A stretch of 64,000 nucleotides of DNA, taken from Flavobacteria bacterium GWA2_35_26. Its GTDB lineage: Bacteria; Bacteroidota; Bacteroidia; Flavobacteriales; Flavobacteriaceae. Numbering within the stretch: position 1 is the stretch's first letter; the number at the start of each line of letters is the position of its first letter. The stretch is taken from assembly GCA_001800905.1 (NCBI GenBank), contig MGWH01000002.1, positions 620,001 through 684,000 of the forward strand, read 5' to 3'. The position numbers were made by a program, and so were the translations under genes. This document shows positions 2,350-9,491 of this stretch, piece after piece. The notes under the pieces were generated by a model. The model saw nothing but the letters and a program-made list of their open reading frames with translations, was not told where the DNA came from and did no database searches.

Positions 2350-3417
2350 CTATCTTTTTTTGGCAGCTCTGTCAATTGTAAATGAAAATTCAGAACCAAC
2401 GCCGTATTCACTTTCAACATATATTTTTTGTTTGTGTGCTTCGACAATATGTTTTACAATAGACAATCCTAAACCAGAACCTCCTTCTGAACGAGAACCA
2501 CTTTTATTTACCCTATAGAATCGTTCAAAAAGGCGAGGGATATTTTGTGACTCAATTCCTTCTCCATTATCAGTAATACGCACTAAGAATTTTTTACTTG
2601 TAAATCCAGTTACTGAAATCTCCGTTTCACCACCTTCTCTACCATATTTAATTGAGTTTACAATTAAATTGATAATCACTTGTTGCAATTTATCTTTATC
2701 GGCTGCCACCCACATTGGTTTATTATTATGTTCTATTACAAGTGTGATGTTCTTTTTAGTGGCTTTCATTTCTAACATGTCTACCACACTTTGAATCAAG
2801 TTGACAACATCAAATTCAGAAATTTCTAAATTCAACTCACCCGATTCCAATTTACTAATCATATCTAAATCTTCTACGATATAGATTAATCGTTCAACTC
2901 CTTTTTCAGCGCGATCCAAATACTTTTTTAGAATTGTTTTATCCGAAAAAGCGCCATCAGTAAGTGTAGACAAATACCCTTGAACCGTAAATAATGGTGT
3001 TTTTAATTCGTGGGAAACATTACCCAAAAATTCTCTACGGTATTGTTCTCTTATTTGCAACATTTCAATCTCCAATTTTTTATCCGAGGCAAATTTCTTT
3101 ACTTTTCTTGATAGCGTTTCCATATCGGTTGCTATAGGTTGACTTCCCATAGTAGATGATTCAAGTATTGCAACGTCATCATAAATTTGTTTAATCCTTC
3201 TGTAAATAAAACGTTCGATTCGGTATTGCAAAACCAAAAAAGAAAAAACAAATACGACAGTAAAATAGATCAAACCGTAAATAAGAACCGCATTTTTATC
3301 TTGCTGCAAGGTAAATCGCATTAAAATCATTCCCAAAAGTGTGGTAAACAAACTTATTAAGGAAGATGATTTAAGGGCAAATTGATAATTTTTCTTGAAA
3401 CTTTTTTTAACGGCCAT
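2350..3417 (-). CDS. phoR: PhoR-like sensor histidine kinase
   Basis: A 355-residue membrane kinase. Two transmembrane segments (~15-38 and 44-66) enclose almost no periplasmic loop, so it probably senses within the membrane or through partner proteins. The H-box is V-S-H-E-L-K-T-P-L with phospho-acceptor His136, followed by the ATPase domain: N-box N-L-I-V-N-S-I-K-Y, G1 D-N-G-E-G-I and G2 G-S-G-L-G-L-S. There is no PAS domain, unlike many PhoR proteins. It lies 68 bp downstream of the PhoB-like response regulator and is surely its partner. The kinase family is firm; the phosphate-specific role is inferred from the partner, from family resemblance and from Pho-box-like repeats next door. Confidence 0.85.
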   Translation of the reverse strand: MAVKKSFKKNYQFALKSSSLISLFTTLLGMILMRFTLQQDKNAVLIYGLIYFTVVFVFSFLVLQYRIERFIYRRIKQIYDDVAILESSTMGSQPIATDMETLSRKVKKFASDKKLEIEMLQIREQYRREFLGNVSHELKTPLFTVQGYLSTLTDGAFSDKTILKKYLDRAEKGVERLIYIVEDLDMISKLESGELNLEISEFDVVNLIQSVVDMLEMKATKKNITLVIEHNNKPMWVAADKDKLQQVIINLIVNSIKYGREGGETEISVTGFTSKKFLVRITDNGEGIESQNIPRLFERFYRVNKSGSRSEGGSGLGLSIVKHIVEAHKQKIYVESEYGVGSEFSFTIDRAAKKR

Positions 3418-3485: not shown

Positions 3486-4169
3486 TTACACTTCTAATTT
3501 GTAACCAACTCCTTTGATAGTTTTGAAATAATCATCTCCTATTTTTTCTCTTAACTTTCTGATGTGAACGTCGATTGTTCTTCCTCCAACAATTACATCA
3601 TTCCCCCAAATTGTATCTAAAATTTCTTCTCTTTTAAATACTTTACCAGGTTTAGATGCTAGTAAATAGAACAATTCAAATTCTTTTCTTGGTAATGATA
3701 TTTCGATTCCATCTTTAATAATAATGTATTCTTCGCGATTGATTTCGATCCCGCCAACACTTAAAGTCCCCACATTTTTTTGTTGATCATTAAAACGTCG
3801 TAACAAAGCATTTACTTTACTTACCAATAATTTTGGCTTGATCGGTTTACTAATATAGTCATCAGCGCCTGCATCAAAACCAGCCACTTGGGTGTAATCT
3901 TCATTACGAGCAGTTAGAAAGGTAATAATTACATTAGGCAGTTCAGGTAATTTTCTAATAATTTCACAGGCCTCGATACCATCCATTTCAGGCATCATGA
4001 CATCCATAATAATTAAATCTGGCAAATCCGATTTGGCTTTAGCAACGGCTTCTTTTCCATTAGAAGCAGTACTAATTTGATATCCTTCTTGTGATAAATT
4101 ATACCCCACAATTTCTAAAATATCTGGTTCATCATCGACCAATAAGATTTTAGCTTTATTCTTTGCCAT
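3486..4169 (-). CDS. phoB: PhoB-like OmpR-family response regulator
   Basis: A 227-residue two-domain regulator. The receiver domain (1-120) has the acidic pair D-D at 12-13, phospho-acceptor Asp56 (I-I-M-D-V-M-M-P), Thr86 and Lys108. The C-terminal winged-helix domain (~135-227) ends with the typical R-T-I-D-V-H-I-R-K-L-R-E-K-I recognition region and K-G-V-G-Y-K-L. It resembles PhoB more than other OmpR members. The gene is divergent from a TonB-dependent receptor; the shared 202-bp region holds six 11-bp-phased heptamer repeats that would suit a PhoB-type head-to-tail binder. Orthology to E. coli PhoB is likely but not proven. Confidence 0.87.
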   Translation of the reverse strand: MAKNKAKILLVDDEPDILEIVGYNLSQEGYQISTASNGKEAVAKAKSDLPDLIIMDVMMPEMDGIEACEIIRKLPELPNVIITFLTARNEDYTQVAGFDAGADDYISKPIKPKLLVSKVNALLRRFNDQQKNVGTLSVGGIEINREEYIIIKDGIEISLPRKEFELFYLLASKPGKVFKREEILDTIWGNDVIVGGRTIDVHIRKLREKIGDDYFKTIKGVGYKLEV

Positions 4170-4272
4170 AGTTTCTTTTATTTGAATCTAAGTTATACTT
4201 ATTTAGATTAACAAGTTGTAAATATATAGAAATTTACACACCGAAAATCGAGTTAACCTAAATTTAATCTAG

Positions 4273-4334
4273 TAACAATTTGGTAATATTAAGTTATTCA
4301 AAATATAACAAAGTGATAACCTCGAAACAACATT
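4273..4334 (+). promoter_or_regulatory. candidate PhoB operator: six 11-bp-phased heptamer repeats
   Basis: Heptamers start at 4273 (TAACAAT), 4284 (TAATATT), 4295 (TATTCAA), 4306 (TAACAAA), 4317 (TAACCTC) and 4328 (CAACATT), each separated by 4 bp. A further pair in another register starts at 4254 (TAACCTA) and 4265 (TAATCTA). E. coli pho boxes have the same 7-4-7 geometry. The last repeat ends 7 bp before a -7-like element TTAATTTG at 4342-4349; there is no TTG at -33, as expected for an activator-dependent promoter. It could serve both the receptor gene and divergent phoB. The protein that binds is inferred. Confidence 0.55.
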
Positions 4335-4371
4335 GCCGCGGTTAATTTGCAGGAAAATTAAAACTATTAAA

Positions 4372-7134
4372 ATGAAATTAAAATTTGTATTAATTACATT
4401 ATTTATTTGTGCAATAAGTTTCGCACAAACCAAAGGTACAGTCACAGGTACACTTTTAGATAAAGAATCAAAAAACCAACCCCTTCCTTTTGCCAATGTG
4501 CTTATTAAAGGAACAACTATCGGAGTAAATACTGACATCGATGGAAAATACAGCATTAATCTTGCTGCTGGTAACTATACTATTCAATTTAGCTTTGTAG
4601 GCTATGAAAACATTGAAATGCCAATCACTGTAAAAGCGAATGAAACACTTGTTATTAATAAAACTTTAGGCTCTGGCAACTACACTTTAAAAGATGTTGT
4701 GGTTAAAGCGAAAGCAAATAGAGAAAAAGCCACAGCTTTACTTTTAGATCAAAAAAATGCAGCAGCAATAAAACAAAGTATTGGTGCACAAGAGCTTTCT
4801 GCAAAGGGTATTAGTGACGTTGAAGAAGGTTTAACAAAGATCACTGGTATTTCTAAAGTTGAATCAAAAGGGTTATTTATTAGAGGCTTAGAGGATCGAT
4901 ACAATAATTTACTTTTAAATAACTTAGCGGTACCGTCTAACAGTCCATTTAAAAAGATAATTCCATTAGATCAATTCCCAACAGATGTTGTTGGATTTAT
5001 GGATGTTTACAAAACATTTAATGCTAATCTATATGGTGATTTCGCAGGAGCGACTATTGACGTAACAACTTCTCAACCAACCGAAAGTCAAACTAAAATA
5101 TCATTTGGAACAGGTTTTACAACTAATAATAACTTAAGTGATTTTTTAATTTCAAGTGATGCAACTAATACAAATAGCTTCTTTGGATTTGGAGGTCAAG
5201 AAAGAACAATGCCTTCAGCTTATGGAACTAAACCATCAGCTAGAATAAGTAATGATTATCAATCTACTTGGAATGTAACTAAAAAACAAGCTCCTTTAAA
5301 TACAAGTTTTGGCGTTAGCCATACAGATAAATTCGAAATTGGTGACAATAAATTATATTACAATTTCGCTACTAATTTTGACAATAAATACCAAATTAGA
5401 GAAGGTGTTGATAGAACATTTTCTCAAGGACAAGGTATTTACGATAACAATTTAAATAGAGTACAATACAAATTTTCAACTCAATCTTCTGTATTATTTG
5501 GATTGCAATATAAATCAAGTCGTTTAAATTTATTTACTAATAGTTTGTATTTAAAATCAACCGAAAATAGTATCCAAGACCAATTGGGTTACACTAGAAC
5601 TGCAATTCAAAATCCAAATGAGTTTATCCGTTTGAACCAGTATGAAGAGTCACAATATTTCTCAAACCAATTGTTTGGAAATTATAAAATCACTGCTGAT
5701 GACAAACATTCTGTAAACGGAGGTATATCTTATACAAGAACTAATTACAATCAACCAGATAGAAAATTTGTTACTGGTAGAAAAATTAGTGAAACTCAAG
5801 TTGAAACTCAATATGGTGCTAACAATTTAATTCGTCAATTTTTCAACATCGACAATAATTTCCATTTATCAGGAAAACTAGAATACAACTTGAAATTTGG
5901 TAAAAACGAAGACAAACAAAATAAATTGTCTATTGGATACAATGGTTTTGCTGAATATATGATTTCTAAATTTAGATTTGCCTTTGGTAAACCAAACGGA
6001 GCTTCTATCCCAACTATTGTGAACATTAATGAAGTAGAGTCAACTATTCAAGCTGATGTAGCGAATAATAGAATGTTTTTTCAAGAAGAATCTTCAAGTG
6101 AATACAAAACAAAAGTTTTTCAAAGAGCTGATGGAATTTACACCAATTTGTTATTCCATTTAAATGATAAATTAGAAATCAACACTGGACTTAGAGCAGA
6201 AAATACAATTCGTGAATACAAATTCAGAACGATTTCTGATCCAATATCAAGCCCATACAGAAAAAAGACAGTTGAAAAATTATATATTTTACCCTCTTTA
6301 AATGTTAAATATGTAGCTTCAGAAAAAAGCAATATTCGTTTTACAGCTTCAAAAACGTATACTAAACCAGTTCTTTTTGAAAGTCTTGATATCAACTTAA
6401 TTAATGCAGATGGAACAACTGAAAGAGGGAATTCAGACCTAATCAACAGTGAAAATTATAATGCTGATTTAAAATTTGAAATTTTCCCAACTAGCAAAGA
6501 ATTATTTGCTGCTACAGTATTTGCCAAATATATTGACAATCCAATCGAAAGAACAGTGCTTTCAAGTGCTACAGGTAGTGGGCAAACTATAACTTACTTT
6601 AATAACAAAAGTGCTCAGTTATTTGGTGCTGAATTTGAGTTTTTAGTTCAATTATCACGTATTAATGATAATTTGAAAGGGTTCTCATTTGGATTTAATA
6701 CATCATTAATGTTTACAGAAGCAACAGTAAACAAAAATAGAAGTGGTTACTTCGATACTTTTGAAAAGAGAAAATTACAAGGAGCCTCTGATTGGTTAGT
6801 AAATTCAGACATTAAATATGAATTTAATTCAGGGGATGCATGGAAAAATACAGCTTCATTAGTATATAGTGTTTATGGAGAACGAATTTTTGCAGTTGGA
6901 ATTGCTGGATACGATCATATCTATGAAAAACCATTTCATAAATTAGATTTAGTTTGGAGTAGTGTTATCAATAAAAAATGGAATTTAAAATTCTCAGTAG
7001 ATAATATACTAGATCCTATTTACAAAAGAGAGTTAGGAACCAACAATAAGATTTCTATTGACGAAGCATCTTACTTGCTTCAATCATACCAAAGAGGAAT
7101 TGGGTTTTCAACTAACTTGACTTATTCTTTCTAA
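4372..7134 (+). CDS. TonB-dependent outer-membrane receptor with carboxypeptidase-like N-domain
   Basis: A 920-residue outer-membrane receptor. A signal peptide (1-19, ending S-F-A-Q) is followed by a carboxypeptidase-regulatory-like beta-sandwich (~20-105, with N-V-L-I-K-G-T-T-I-G-V and G-N-Y-T-I-Q-F-S-F-V-G-Y), a plug domain (~115-240, with I-R-G-L-E-D-R-Y-N-N) and a beta-barrel ending in aromatic F (T-Y-S-F). The start is ATG 4372; an in-frame upstream extension overlaps the promoter. No SusD-like partner follows; instead a beta-helix lipoprotein gene lies downstream with a similar operator array. The ligand is unknown. Position beside phoB and the repeats suggest induction under phosphate limitation, which is inference. 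Confidence 0.9.
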   Translation: MKLKFVLITLFICAISFAQTKGTVTGTLLDKESKNQPLPFANVLIKGTTIGVNTDIDGKYSINLAAGNYTIQFSFVGYENIEMPITVKANETLVINKTLGSGNYTLKDVVVKAKANREKATALLLDQKNAAAIKQSIGAQELSAKGISDVEEGLTKITGISKVESKGLFIRGLEDRYNNLLLNNLAVPSNSPFKKIIPLDQFPTDVVGFMDVYKTFNANLYGDFAGATIDVTTSQPTESQTKISFGTGFTTNNNLSDFLISSDATNTNSFFGFGGQERTMPSAYGTKPSARISNDYQSTWNVTKKQAPLNTSFGVSHTDKFEIGDNKLYYNFATNFDNKYQIREGVDRTFSQGQGIYDNNLNRVQYKFSTQSSVLFGLQYKSSRLNLFTNSLYLKSTENSIQDQLGYTRTAIQNPNEFIRLNQYEESQYFSNQLFGNYKITADDKHSVNGGISYTRTNYNQPDRKFVTGRKISETQVETQYGANNLIRQFFNIDNNFHLSGKLEYNLKFGKNEDKQNKLSIGYNGFAEYMISKFRFAFGKPNGASIPTIVNINEVESTIQADVANNRMFFQEESSSEYKTKVFQRADGIYTNLLFHLNDKLEINTGLRAENTIREYKFRTISDPISSPYRKKTVEKLYILPSLNVKYVASEKSNIRFTASKTYTKPVLFESLDINLINADGTTERGNSDLINSENYNADLKFEIFPTSKELFAATVFAKYIDNPIERTVLSSATGSGQTITYFNNKSAQLFGAEFEFLVQLSRINDNLKGFSFGFNTSLMFTEATVNKNRSGYFDTFEKRKLQGASDWLVNSDIKYEFNSGDAWKNTASLVYSVYGERIFAVGIAGYDHIYEKPFHKLDLVWSSVINKKWNLKFSVDNILDPIYKRELGTNNKISIDEASYLLQSYQRGIGFSTNLTYSF

Positions 7135-7181: not shown

Positions 7182-7269
7182 TAACGTTCAGGAAACTATT
7201 AATTATTCAACGACTAACAATTTTATAACAATTACTATACATTAATAAAATACAAGTCAAATACATTTG
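7182..7269 (+). promoter_or_regulatory. promoter with 11-bp-phased Pho-box-like repeats
   Basis: Heptamers at 7182 (TAACGTT), 7204 (TATTCAA), 7215 (TAACAAT) and 7226 (TAACAAT) all lie on one 11-bp register; the last two form a perfect 7-4-7 direct repeat. A perfect -7 element TACATTTG sits at 7262-7269 and there is no TTG near -33. The repeats are in the same phase relative to the -7 element as in the receptor promoter upstream (offset 14 bp from a register position in both). This suggests one activator for both genes. Confidence 0.55.
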
Positions 7270-7299: not shown

Positions 7300-8475
7300 A
7301 TGAAAAAATTAATTTTAAGCTTATCAATTTTAGCTTTAACTTTTACAGGATGTTCAACAACTGATGATGAAGACACAACTCAAATTCCAGTAGTTGGAGA
7401 ATTAACAGGTTCTATCACTTCAAACAGAACTATTGCTTTTGGAAATTACACATTAAAAGGAATTGTAACTATTGAATCTGGAGTTACTGTAACTTTTGAC
7501 GCAGGGTCAACTATTACTGCAAATGCAGCTGATGGTGTGGATGCACTAGTAGTTAAAAATGGTGGTAAATTAATTATGAATGGTACCGCTGCTCAACCTA
7601 TTATTTTAACTGAACCTTCAGCAACTCCTGGAGCTTGGGGCGGAATTATCATGTATGGTGATGCACCAATAACTGGCGCTCCTGTAAATGGTGTTGCGGT
7701 TGCCTCTAAAAACTCTGAAGATGGTTTAAATTTATCATATGGTGGAACTAATGCAGCTCACAATGGCGGAACATTACGTTATGTAAGAGTAGAATACGCT
7801 GGAAAAAAAATTACTGATGGTACAAGTGAAATGAATGGATTTTCATTTTATTCTGTAGGATCTGGAACTGTTTTAGAGAATCTAGTTTCCTACAAAGGTG
7901 CTGATGATGGTTTTGAATTTTATGGTGGTACAGTGAGTGCTAAAAATTTAATTTCTTACGGAAATTTTGATGATTCTTTTGACTGGCAAGACGGTTGGAA
8001 AGGTGAAAACAATACCAATTGGTACGCTTACCAAGTGACAACAGGAAACTTTGGAATGGAAATTGAAGCTTCAAATAATAACAATGCTTTCTACCCAGTA
8101 GTTTCTAATATAACTTTAAAAAGAGCCGCTGGAACAGTTACAGAAGGAGGTTCATCTGCTGCTGAATATGATGCAATCCAGTTTAAAAAACACGGGAATG
8201 GTCATTTTTCAAATATTGTGATTTCTGGTTATACTACAACAGGAGCAACAGCAGTTCGTATTCAAGATGCTAATGCTAATACACAAGTAAATGAAGGTAA
8301 AATTAAATTAACTTCAGTTAAAAAAGATGATATTACATCTAAATTTGCAACTGTTGGAACAACAATTACAGTAAATTTTCTAGAAGCCAATTATACACTT
8401 AGCTCTTCAGCAACTGGTGCTAGTTTAACTGCAGGTGCTTGGGCAACAGTAAATGGTGTGAATTTAATTCAATAG
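7300..8475 (+). CDS. right-handed beta-helix lipoprotein
   Basis: A 391-residue exported lipoprotein: signal peptide with lipobox ending at Cys18 (L-T-F-T-G-C), a short acidic linker with D-D-E-D, then a repetitive domain rich in Gly, Asn and Thr with parallel beta-helix character. Recognisable segments are G-T-L-R-Y-V-R-V-E-Y-A-G (~160), G-A-D-D-G-F-E-F-Y-G-G and D-D-S-F-D-W-Q-D-G-W, as in a Bacteroidota/marine-bacteria family often encoded beside TonB-dependent receptors. The acidic clusters could bind cations. Function is unknown; it may be a surface-exposed partner of the receptor upstream, with which it shares a predicted operator type. Confidence 0.78.
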   Translation: MKKLILSLSILALTFTGCSTTDDEDTTQIPVVGELTGSITSNRTIAFGNYTLKGIVTIESGVTVTFDAGSTITANAADGVDALVVKNGGKLIMNGTAAQPIILTEPSATPGAWGGIIMYGDAPITGAPVNGVAVASKNSEDGLNLSYGGTNAAHNGGTLRYVRVEYAGKKITDGTSEMNGFSFYSVGSGTVLENLVSYKGADDGFEFYGGTVSAKNLISYGNFDDSFDWQDGWKGENNTNWYAYQVTTGNFGMEIEASNNNNAFYPVVSNITLKRAAGTVTEGGSSAAEYDAIQFKKHGNGHFSNIVISGYTTTGATAVRIQDANANTQVNEGKIKLTSVKKDDITSKFATVGTTITVNFLEANYTLSSSATGASLTAGAWATVNGVNLIQ

Positions 8476-8546: not shown

Positions 8547-8891
8547 TTAATTTAAAGCAACTGTTCCTTTGCTCCATTTTTTAACTGATAAAATACTGTC
8601 TTTAGAGAAATCAACTTCAGAAAGTCCTTCATTGTTCCAGAAAAACCAGTTACCTACTTTTTTACCTTTTGCATATTCAGCAATTGCAATCTTTACACCA
8701 TTCTCATTGTAAGAAACCCATTTTCCTTCTAATTTACCATCAGCAAAAAATCCTTCTTGTTGGATTTCTCCGTTTTCGTGATAATATGTTGCTTTAACTA
8801 AACCGTTTACTTCTTCTAATTTAGGCTCTCTATTTTGTGCAAAAGTTACACTAGATACTACTAACACTGCGATCATCATAATTTTTTTCAT
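8547..8891 (-). CDS. secreted MORN/YwqK-type repeat protein
   Basis: A 114-residue protein with a signal peptide (M-K-K-I-M-M-I-A-V-L-V-V-S-S-V-T-F-A-Q) followed by about three MORN-like repeats of the Y-x-E-N-G-x-x-x-x-E-G-x-F/W type: Y-H-E-N-G-E-I-Q-Q-E-G-F-F, G-K-L-E-G-K-W-V-S-Y-N-E-N-G and K-G-K-K-V-G-N-W-F-F-W-N-N-E-G. Such proteins are often auto-annotated as YwqK family antitoxins, but nothing here resembles a toxin partner and the signal peptide argues for an envelope role. It lies in the possible Pho-linked cluster, convergent with the beta-helix lipoprotein. Confidence 0.75.
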   Translation of the reverse strand: MKKIMMIAVLVVSSVTFAQNREPKLEEVNGLVKATYYHENGEIQQEGFFADGKLEGKWVSYNENGVKIAIAEYAKGKKVGNWFFWNNEGLSEVDFSKDSILSVKKWSKGTVALN

Positions 8892-8941
8892 TTTGTTAGG
8901 TTTTAATTGTTAATAATTCGATAATAAATATAGACATTAAT

Positions 8942-8981
8942 TTACATCTACCAAACATTTACTTAACAATTTGGTAACATT
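8942..8981 (+). promoter_or_regulatory. third array of 11-bp-phased Pho-box-like repeats
   Basis: Four heptamers in one register: 8942 (TTACATC), 8953 (AAACATT), 8964 (TAACAAT) and 8975 (TAACATT), with 4-bp spacers. The array lies between the MORN-type gene (minus strand, start 8891) and the T9SS mini-protein (plus strand, start 9159). The orientation matches the two arrays upstream, that is, the plus strand, but I cannot place a convincing -7 element in the expected position, so the target gene is undecided. Confidence 0.45.
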
Positions 8982-9158
8982 GAAACACAAATCTATACGA
9001 TTTTCAATTGAATTAGTAGTTAAGTATTTGATTTGTAATTGTTTGCAATGTTAAATTAATTTTAAAAAAAAATATATTTTTTTTGACCAAACGATTTTTT
9101 ATCCATTTTAGTATTTCTGTAGAAAAAAATAGTACTTTTATACTGTTACTTTCAGAAC

Positions 9159-9491
9159 ATGAAGAAGTTGTACTACATCCCTTTTCTGTTTTTGCTGTTA
9201 ATTGTTTCTAGTGCCAAGGCACAAGACGTTAAACAGCAATCCAAAATACAAGAGTCTGCCATTGAAGGTTTGAGCTTGTATCCTAATCCTATAACTAATG
9301 GGAAAGTGTACATTGCAACAAAAAATGATGCAGAAAAAGAAATCCAAATTTTTGATGTTTTAGGCAAAAAAGTGTTTTATACTCAATTAAATACTAGAGA
9401 ATTAAACATCTCGTCTCTTTCTCCTGGCGTATACATTATCAAAATAAGAGAGGAAGAAAGCACTGCCACACGAAAATTAATTATTCGATAA
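9159..9491 (+). CDS. mini-protein consisting of a signal peptide and a type A T9SS sorting domain
   Basis: A 110-residue protein: signal peptide (1-22, ends S-S-A-K-A-Q), about 12 linker residues, then a complete type IX secretion C-terminal domain (~35-110). The domain is identified by L-Y-P-N-P at ~41, I-F-D-V-L-G-K-K-V, L-N-I-S-S-L-S-P-G-V-Y-I-I-K-I and the basic terminal K-L-I-I-R. In ordinary T9SS substrates this domain follows a large cargo; here essentially no cargo is present. The start ATG precedes an ideal signal peptide. A weak -7 element (TACTTTTA) lies at 9133-9140. It could be a carrier peptide, a competitor for the secretion machinery, or a remnant of a larger gene. Confidence 0.8.
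   Translation: MKKLYYIPFLFLLLIVSSAKAQDVKQQSKIQESAIEGLSLYPNPITNGKVYIATKNDAEKEIQIFDVLGKKVFYTQLNTRELNISSLSPGVYIIKIREEESTATRKLIIR

Follow-up and report, generated by a model that had tools for sequence, protein, structure and literature searches.

A conserved 11-bp repeat array locked to the -7 element of a TonB-dependent receptor promoter beside phoB is likely a Pho box of flavobacteria and related families

In the window (the whole stretch of 64,000 nucleotides analysed here), six direct repeats at positions 4273-4334 on the plus strand form a conserved array in an 11-bp register that is locked to the -7 element of a TonB-dependent receptor promoter, and this array is very probably a Pho box for PhoB. 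The register is kept and the lock to the -7 element recurs at orthologous loci, and arrays of the same type are found upstream of phosphate genes in further families of the class common to our genome sample, which we take to be Bacteroidia of the GTDB taxonomy. The array has the sequence hallmarks of a Pho box: at least two direct repeats of 7 to 8 bp in an 11-bp register, placed before phosphate-starvation genes, with the last unit close upstream of a core promoter element, where a -35/-33 element would otherwise lie. We infer that the PhoB-like protein encoded at 3486-4169 is the binder and activator. Bacteroidota use their own promoter elements and, to our knowledge, the sites of their regulators are little described. 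A Bacteroidota Pho-box consensus was not recognised among the matches listed by full-text searches, which covered mainly the main texts of papers outside subscription. A box of known sequence whose spacing follows a fixed rule would make phosphate regulons predictable across a class important in soil, water and the gut, also for TonB receptors and surface lipoproteins with a presumed role in the uptake of organic phosphorus, and it points to how genomes that lack PhoU may sense phosphate.

The phoB-receptor locus

The array lies between the gene for the PhoB-like response regulator (3486-4169, minus strand), its predicted binder, and the TonB-dependent receptor gene (4372-7134, plus strand). 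The regulator consists of a receiver domain (Response_reg, PF00072) and a winged-helix domain (Trans_reg_C, PF00486), both detected above cut-off. The PhoB models TIGR02154 (207.2 bits) and NF053854 (204.6) are its two best models despite scores below their curated cut-offs of 296.2 and 270, respectively. The PhoR-like sensor kinase (2350-3417, minus strand) has HisKA and HATPase_c domains and also scores under the cut-offs of the curated PhoR models. The assembly that contains the window comprises 2.10 Mb and is 99.49% complete. The genome is Flavobacterium-like: a MAG named Flavobacterium (locus L063) has the same locus, with the MORN-repeat-like and T9SS-tail proteins described below being 92% and 88% identical. 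A receptor search of plasmids returned 87 records, every one below 60% identity. Between the gene for a SulP-type transporter and phoR, the window also encodes a 93-aa protein with a signal-like start (1978-2259), for which no NCBIfam or Pfam family match was found.

The six units follow one another at exactly 11 bp: TAACAAT (4273), TAATATT (4284), TATTCAA (4295), TAACAAA (4306), TAACCTC (4317) and CAACATT (4328). Four are good copies and two (4295 and 4328) are weak; all six are predicted PhoB half-sites of the receptor promoter. The -7 element TTAATTTG (4342-4349, plus strand) begins 7 bp past the array end at 4334, and its TTTG lies 29 bp after the unit at 4317. Two extra conserved units, TAAC at 4254 and TAAT at 4265 (4254-4271, assigned to neither strand), are 11 bp apart and 8 bp off the register of the six-unit array; their target may be phoB on the opposite strand, the receptor gene, or both. 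These two units had been overlooked in the earlier note, whose principal observations held when the sequence was re-examined and ranked by matrix: the 11-bp heptamer period at all six positions, the 7-bp gap between the last copy and a -7-like element, and two further arrays, which we place at 7215-7232 and 8942-8983.

Conservation of the register in the genus

A search for the receptor in 61 genus genomes, the window's own among them, gave a match in every one; the loci compared are the best 30 of these 61, so that the conservation counts lean toward closer receptors. At each of the 30 loci (own included), the receptor gene has a phoB-like gene beside it and an FII-type lipoprotein gene after it. 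All 30 contain the TTTG of the -7 element, as TTTGC. Counted back from TTTG, words of the form TAA[CT] or TTAC occur at -73 (28 loci), -62 (29), -40 (28), -29 (30) and -18 (24), the position at -51 being a weak unit. Further words occur at -92 (29 loci) and -81 (25), the positions of the two extra units, and at -86 (26), an additional conserved word off register. Between -75 and -10, 139 of 158 such words share a single phase of the possible eleven. Unit positions stay fixed while the distance from TTTG to the ATG start codon ranges from 21 to 43 bp; only in L012 are the upstream units shifted, and the register is kept in 29 of the 30 loci.

A unit matrix was trained on 29 of these receptor promoters (L012 was left out because of its shifted units). 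In a leave-one-out test of the window array, the training set excluded both this locus and L009. The six-unit score at 4273 ranked first among 127,870 window positions on both strands, and none of 500 dinucleotide-shuffled versions of the intergenic region reached it; the four-unit score ranked second in the window (0/500 shuffles), and the three-unit score was weaker, ranking eighth and being reached in 17/500.

Rows of similar words might also arise by chance in AT-rich intergenic DNA, as simple pattern counts over whole genomes do not rise above a reversed control. Short IUPAC patterns gave 31 forward and 41 reversed matches in the window's own genome and 64 and 109 in strain SLB02 (95 versus 150 in total). 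A second pattern set gave 5 versus 6 in the own genome, 3 versus 5 in G051 and 20 versus 14 in SLB02 (28 versus 25 over the three genomes). Since neither set shows a clear excess, the regulon is not readable from simple patterns. Against chance stand the first rank in the window, the shuffles and, above all, the fixed position at 29 of 30 loci despite the varying distance to the start codon; this conservation refutes a chance origin of the repeats, the probability of which we regard as negligible.

Arrays before phosphate genes across the class

The eight-column core of the matrix, which was used for the scans, reads (G/T)TAACA(A/T)T, with the C of TAAC kept at 0.73; the E. coli consensus CTGTCAT is not matched by the unit. 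We scanned pst regions within and outside the genus, counting as hits scores of at least 12 and as upstream those within 200 bp of a gene, with 20 random regions per set as controls. The genus set comprised 18 regions, reduced to 16 by removing L155 and L161, which lie on cut contigs. The outside-genus set comprised 32 regions: 31 representing 27 other families of the class, whose genomes were picked from 74 with PhoU for having a single-domain PhoU among the matches listed, and L287, from another genus of the window's family, which came from a phylum-wide PhoU search that listed mainly distant classes.

Within the genus, all 28 hits were upstream of a same-strand gene and were distributed over 15 of the 16 regions, while the control regions gave 0 hits in 20. 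Outside the genus, 33 hits were obtained over both strands together (34 when counted strand by strand), 28 of which, spread over 17 of the 32 regions, were upstream of a same-strand gene and three before an opposite-strand gene only; 15 of the 32 regions had no upstream same-strand hit. The corresponding 20 controls gave two hits, both upstream of a same-strand gene. Region maxima differed from those of controls in Mann-Whitney tests (p 9.7e-7 for 16 versus 20 genus regions; p 7.4e-4 for 20 versus 20 regions from the same 20 genomes outside the genus).

The mirror matrix proved to be a poor control (2/16 and 5/32 regions reach a score of 15), because TAACAAT reads the same backwards, which also makes the reversed heptamer void as a control; we therefore relied on random regions and on a scan of periods with the training stretches masked. 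Period 11 reached a score of 15 in 15 of the 16 genus regions and 14 of the 32 others, and periods 8-10 and 12-14 did so in none or one. This bears on the view that the repeats are a structural element, that is, AT-rich DNA bent by helical phasing that aids the polymerase without a specific protein. The units are indeed AT-rich and phased near the helical repeat; however, no more than one region reaches the threshold with neighbouring periods such as 10 and 12, the units retain the C of TAAC, and random regions are nearly free of hits (0 in 20 for the genus, 2 in 20 for other families), which makes a purely structural role very improbable.

The genes behind the arrays speak to the identity of the binder. 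We ran Pfam on 20 of them (19 from the scanned regions and one from the own genome) and found Porin_O_P, PstS-type binding proteins, PstC-type permeases, PhoU_div, an OmpR/PhoB-family regulator and the PHO4 transporter of the own genome; four had no match, and one matched a T9SS sorting domain only. Many named relatives carry the array before oprP. At PhoX loci the picture is mixed: 3 of 12 have an array, with modest scores (10.8, 9.4 and 14.9) and a TTTG in phase at 84; arrays are absent from four strong PhoX loci (L107-L110), and PhoX was not found in strain SLB02. The phosphate genes that matrix hits precede in the regions examined are those of the pst operon and of the PhoU_div(DUF47)-Pit operon, Porin_O_P genes and some PhoX-like genes. 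Together with the register conserved in alignments of orthologous intergenic regions (29/30 loci) and the phoB-like gene that accompanies the receptor throughout, these matches support what the earlier note had proposed, namely that the row next to phoB is a Pho box. Neither outcome that the note named as refuting, an unconserved register or hits placed randomly with respect to phosphate genes, was seen in the loci and regions covered. In another family, a strong array (L256:6086-6127) is located 24 bp before a gene for an OmpR/PhoB-family regulator, which suggests that this regulator is autoregulated.

Direct repeats every 11 bp are common in the OmpR/PhoB regulator family, and this counts for another explanation: a different OmpR/PhoB-type regulator that follows phosphate or envelope state binds the arrays, and the phoBR neighbourhood is incidental. 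The best full-length solved relatives of the PhoB-like regulator are MtrA and RegX3, and its DNA-binding domain scores 62-68 bits against chains of VicR, WalR and RegX3, compared with 52 bits for E. coli PhoB. We consider this explanation unlikely, given that the genes behind the arrays in the examined regions are largely phosphate genes from many families, that the array adjoins phoB at 30/30 loci and precedes a regulator gene of this family in L256, and that a 512-bp fragment of a pstC promoter is bound and shifted by PhoB of B. fragilis (PMC3547664). The word "consensus" is absent from the main text of that B. fragilis paper (PMC3547664).

Phase lock to the -7 element

The scoring matrix contains nothing of the -7 element, and the arrays it finds stand in a fixed phase to it. 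Of the 28 genus arrays, 24 had a TTTG downstream, the first of which was at 7 modulo 11 in 20 cases; outside the genus, the same was true for 24 of the 28 arrays with a TTTG (34 arrays, six without). The in-phase maxima in 1000 shuffles of the downstream DNA were 5 and 4, respectively. The stricter TAnnTTTG, described as the sigma-A -7 box of flavobacteria (PMC9723704), was in phase in 16/16 genus arrays and 8/12 outside the genus. Among the 82 arrays with a TTTG at 38 named loci (94 arrays in total), 75 were in phase; many of these closely resemble the training promoters, but Mariniflexile, Formosa, Confluentibacter and Aureivirga are also represented.

A distance of 18 or 29 bp between the fourth scored unit and TTTG was seen in 14 of the 24 genus arrays and 20 of the 28 others; since these two distances prevail, PhoB would occupy a single helical face next to sigma. 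Under the Pho-box reading, molecules of phosphorylated PhoB would form a head-to-tail row on the half-sites, and the row would recruit RNA polymerase when phosphate is scarce, helping sigma; units in place of the missing -33 element would explain the presumed dependence on an activator.

Relation to known Pho boxes and phosphate responses

The PhoP box of B. subtilis, TT(A/T/C)ACA-N5, also places TTAACA-like units every 11 bp, in either orientation, and the array unit is near it as well; it belongs to another phylum and another promoter type. In sequence, the unit comes closest to the SphR box of cyanobacteria, CTTAACCT as given in PMC1906773, with 8 + 3 bp and three units. The two share nearly the same unit (TTAAC), the 11-bp register and tandem rows before pst and phosphatase genes; unlike in the SphR box of that paper, which comes from another phylum, TTAA is followed here by CA(A/T)T more often than by CCT, and the array's helical phase relative to the -7 element is fixed. 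The E. coli Pho box (CTGTCAT, 7 + 4 bp; PMC4415409, PMC1906773) has direct repeats in the same register, and in both cases the row ends shortly upstream of the core promoter, with a gap of 10 bp to the -10 element in E. coli (PMC1906773) and of 7 bp to the -7 element here. Unlike the E. coli box as these sources describe it, the array has a TTAACA-like unit, six units plus two, and the flavobacterial -7 element TAnnTTTG.

Published expression data for F. johnsoniae agree with a phosphate-responsive locus. Genes of the window were matched to F. johnsoniae genes by gene order rather than sequence, and on that basis the receptor is the counterpart of the receptor beside F. johnsoniae phoB, which belongs to a phoBR-receptor-FII locus of the same order that is induced by phosphate depletion (PMC8115612). 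Values from the FC column, which we read as log2, were 8.02 for the receptor, 9.91 for FII and 3.06 for PhoB (PMC8115612). The OprP porin of the phoBR locus was not induced (-1.3, not significant), and uncharacterised phosphate-responsive loci including FII are described as tightly repressed under N and Fe limitation (PMC8115612). The main text of that paper contains "pho box" and "promoter" zero times each and gives no promoter or binding sequence (PMC8115612).

PhoU_div-Pit genes and a possible shared code

The own 99.49% complete assembly contains no match to PhoU (PF01895), so that the classic Pst-PhoU combination is not found in it. It has two PhoU_div genes. One, in the Pit region (G000:C4:104799-106852), is followed by a PHO4 transporter and carries an in-phase array whose last unit is 18 bp before TTTG; the other (G000:C6:328693-329307) has two units that are one base out of phase. 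Among 30 genus loci, a two-unit box was the top hit, lay on the same strand and had its scored stretch end 22-44 bp before the PhoU_div gene in 25 cases, six of which scored low as four-unit arrays (2.0-5.9); the two-unit box was absent in L207, L208, L214, L221 and L225. PhoU was detected in 17 of the 61 genus genomes (44 without) and PhoU_div in 53; neither was seen in G012, G016, G021, G023, G032 and G034, of which G021 and G034 are incomplete.

In S. aureus, the PhoU_div protein PitR (PF01865) represses PhoR (PMC13170248), and a PitR-based loop in Flavobacterium without PhoU is therefore a fair inference from analogy. As in S. aureus, the PhoU_div gene adjoins a Pit transporter gene; unlike the S. 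aureus case described in PMC13170248, here the PhoU_div gene bears a predicted Pho box and 44/61 genus genomes lack PhoU. An array before PitR-Pit genes would close a feedback loop. More broadly, Bacteroidia may share one Pho code, with TTAACA-type units every 11 bp, in either orientation, on one helical face of TAnnTTTG, and PitR-Pit, itself under the box, may replace Pst-PhoU as the sensing partner in PhoU-less Flavobacterium; we see the chances of this combined proposal as evenly balanced. If such a shared code is real, the phosphate regulon becomes readable from sequence in the class.

The lipoprotein and MORN promoters

Downstream of the receptor gene, the same type of array recurs twice, once before the lipoprotein gene and once, in inverted orientation, before the MORN gene. 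Before the gene for the FII-type surface lipoprotein (7300-8475, plus strand), a homologue of which stands beside the receptor gene at 30/30 loci, two perfect units TAACAAT-N4-TAACAAT (7215-7232, plus strand) are in phase with a perfect -7 element, TACATTTG (7262-7269, plus strand), the TTTG of which comes 51 bp after the TAAC at 7215, that is, at 7 modulo 11. Lipoprotein promoters are outside the training set. In 27 of the 30 (L015, L032 and L034 were dropped for a poorly placed start or a short spacer), 79 of 113 words between -75 and -10 fall in the phase of the receptor promoters, with the other phases holding 0-11 words each. In strain SLB02, a phased array is present at two of six FII-family genes, FII itself and one more.

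The third array, which is the top four-unit match in the window, consists of four units (8942-8983, minus strand) that are inverted relative to the gene for a MORN-repeat-like secreted protein (8547-8891, minus strand; PF07661 at 28.3 bits, just below the cut-off of 29.6), a predicted target of the box with the -7 element TATATTTA (8925-8932, minus strand). Read toward this gene, words of the form GTTA, ATTA, GTAA or GTTT lie 17, 28, 39 and 50 bp before TTT[GA] of a -7 element in the window and L063. Such words occur at 17, 39 and 50 in five loci from other genera and at 16, 28, 39 and 50 in L074. GTTA-type units thus keep fixed steps from the -7 element at all eight MORN loci (the window, L057, L058, L061, L063, L065, L066 and L074), with a few extra words out of step. 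The array is of the same kind as that of the receptor, inverted and with its phase differing by one base, and this pattern of words suggests that the box may function in both orientations.

Most likely, judging from these spacings, the array at 8942 serves the divergent MORN gene and not the gene to its right. A role in driving the latter, a T9SS-tail gene at 9159, was rejected because there is no in-phase TTTG on that side and the similarity to L063 fades toward 9159, whereas the MORN side is fixed at 8/8 loci. The product of this gene (9159-9491) is a secreted protein of 110 aa that has little beyond a type IX sorting domain, a sorting tail nearly free of cargo. A T9SS-tail protein is encoded downstream of the FII lipoprotein gene in 30 of the 38 named loci (L039-L042, L044-L056, L059, L060, L062-L064, L067-L070, L072, L073, L075 and L076). 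A further MORN homologue was detected in control region L321, where it starts at the first base of the region.
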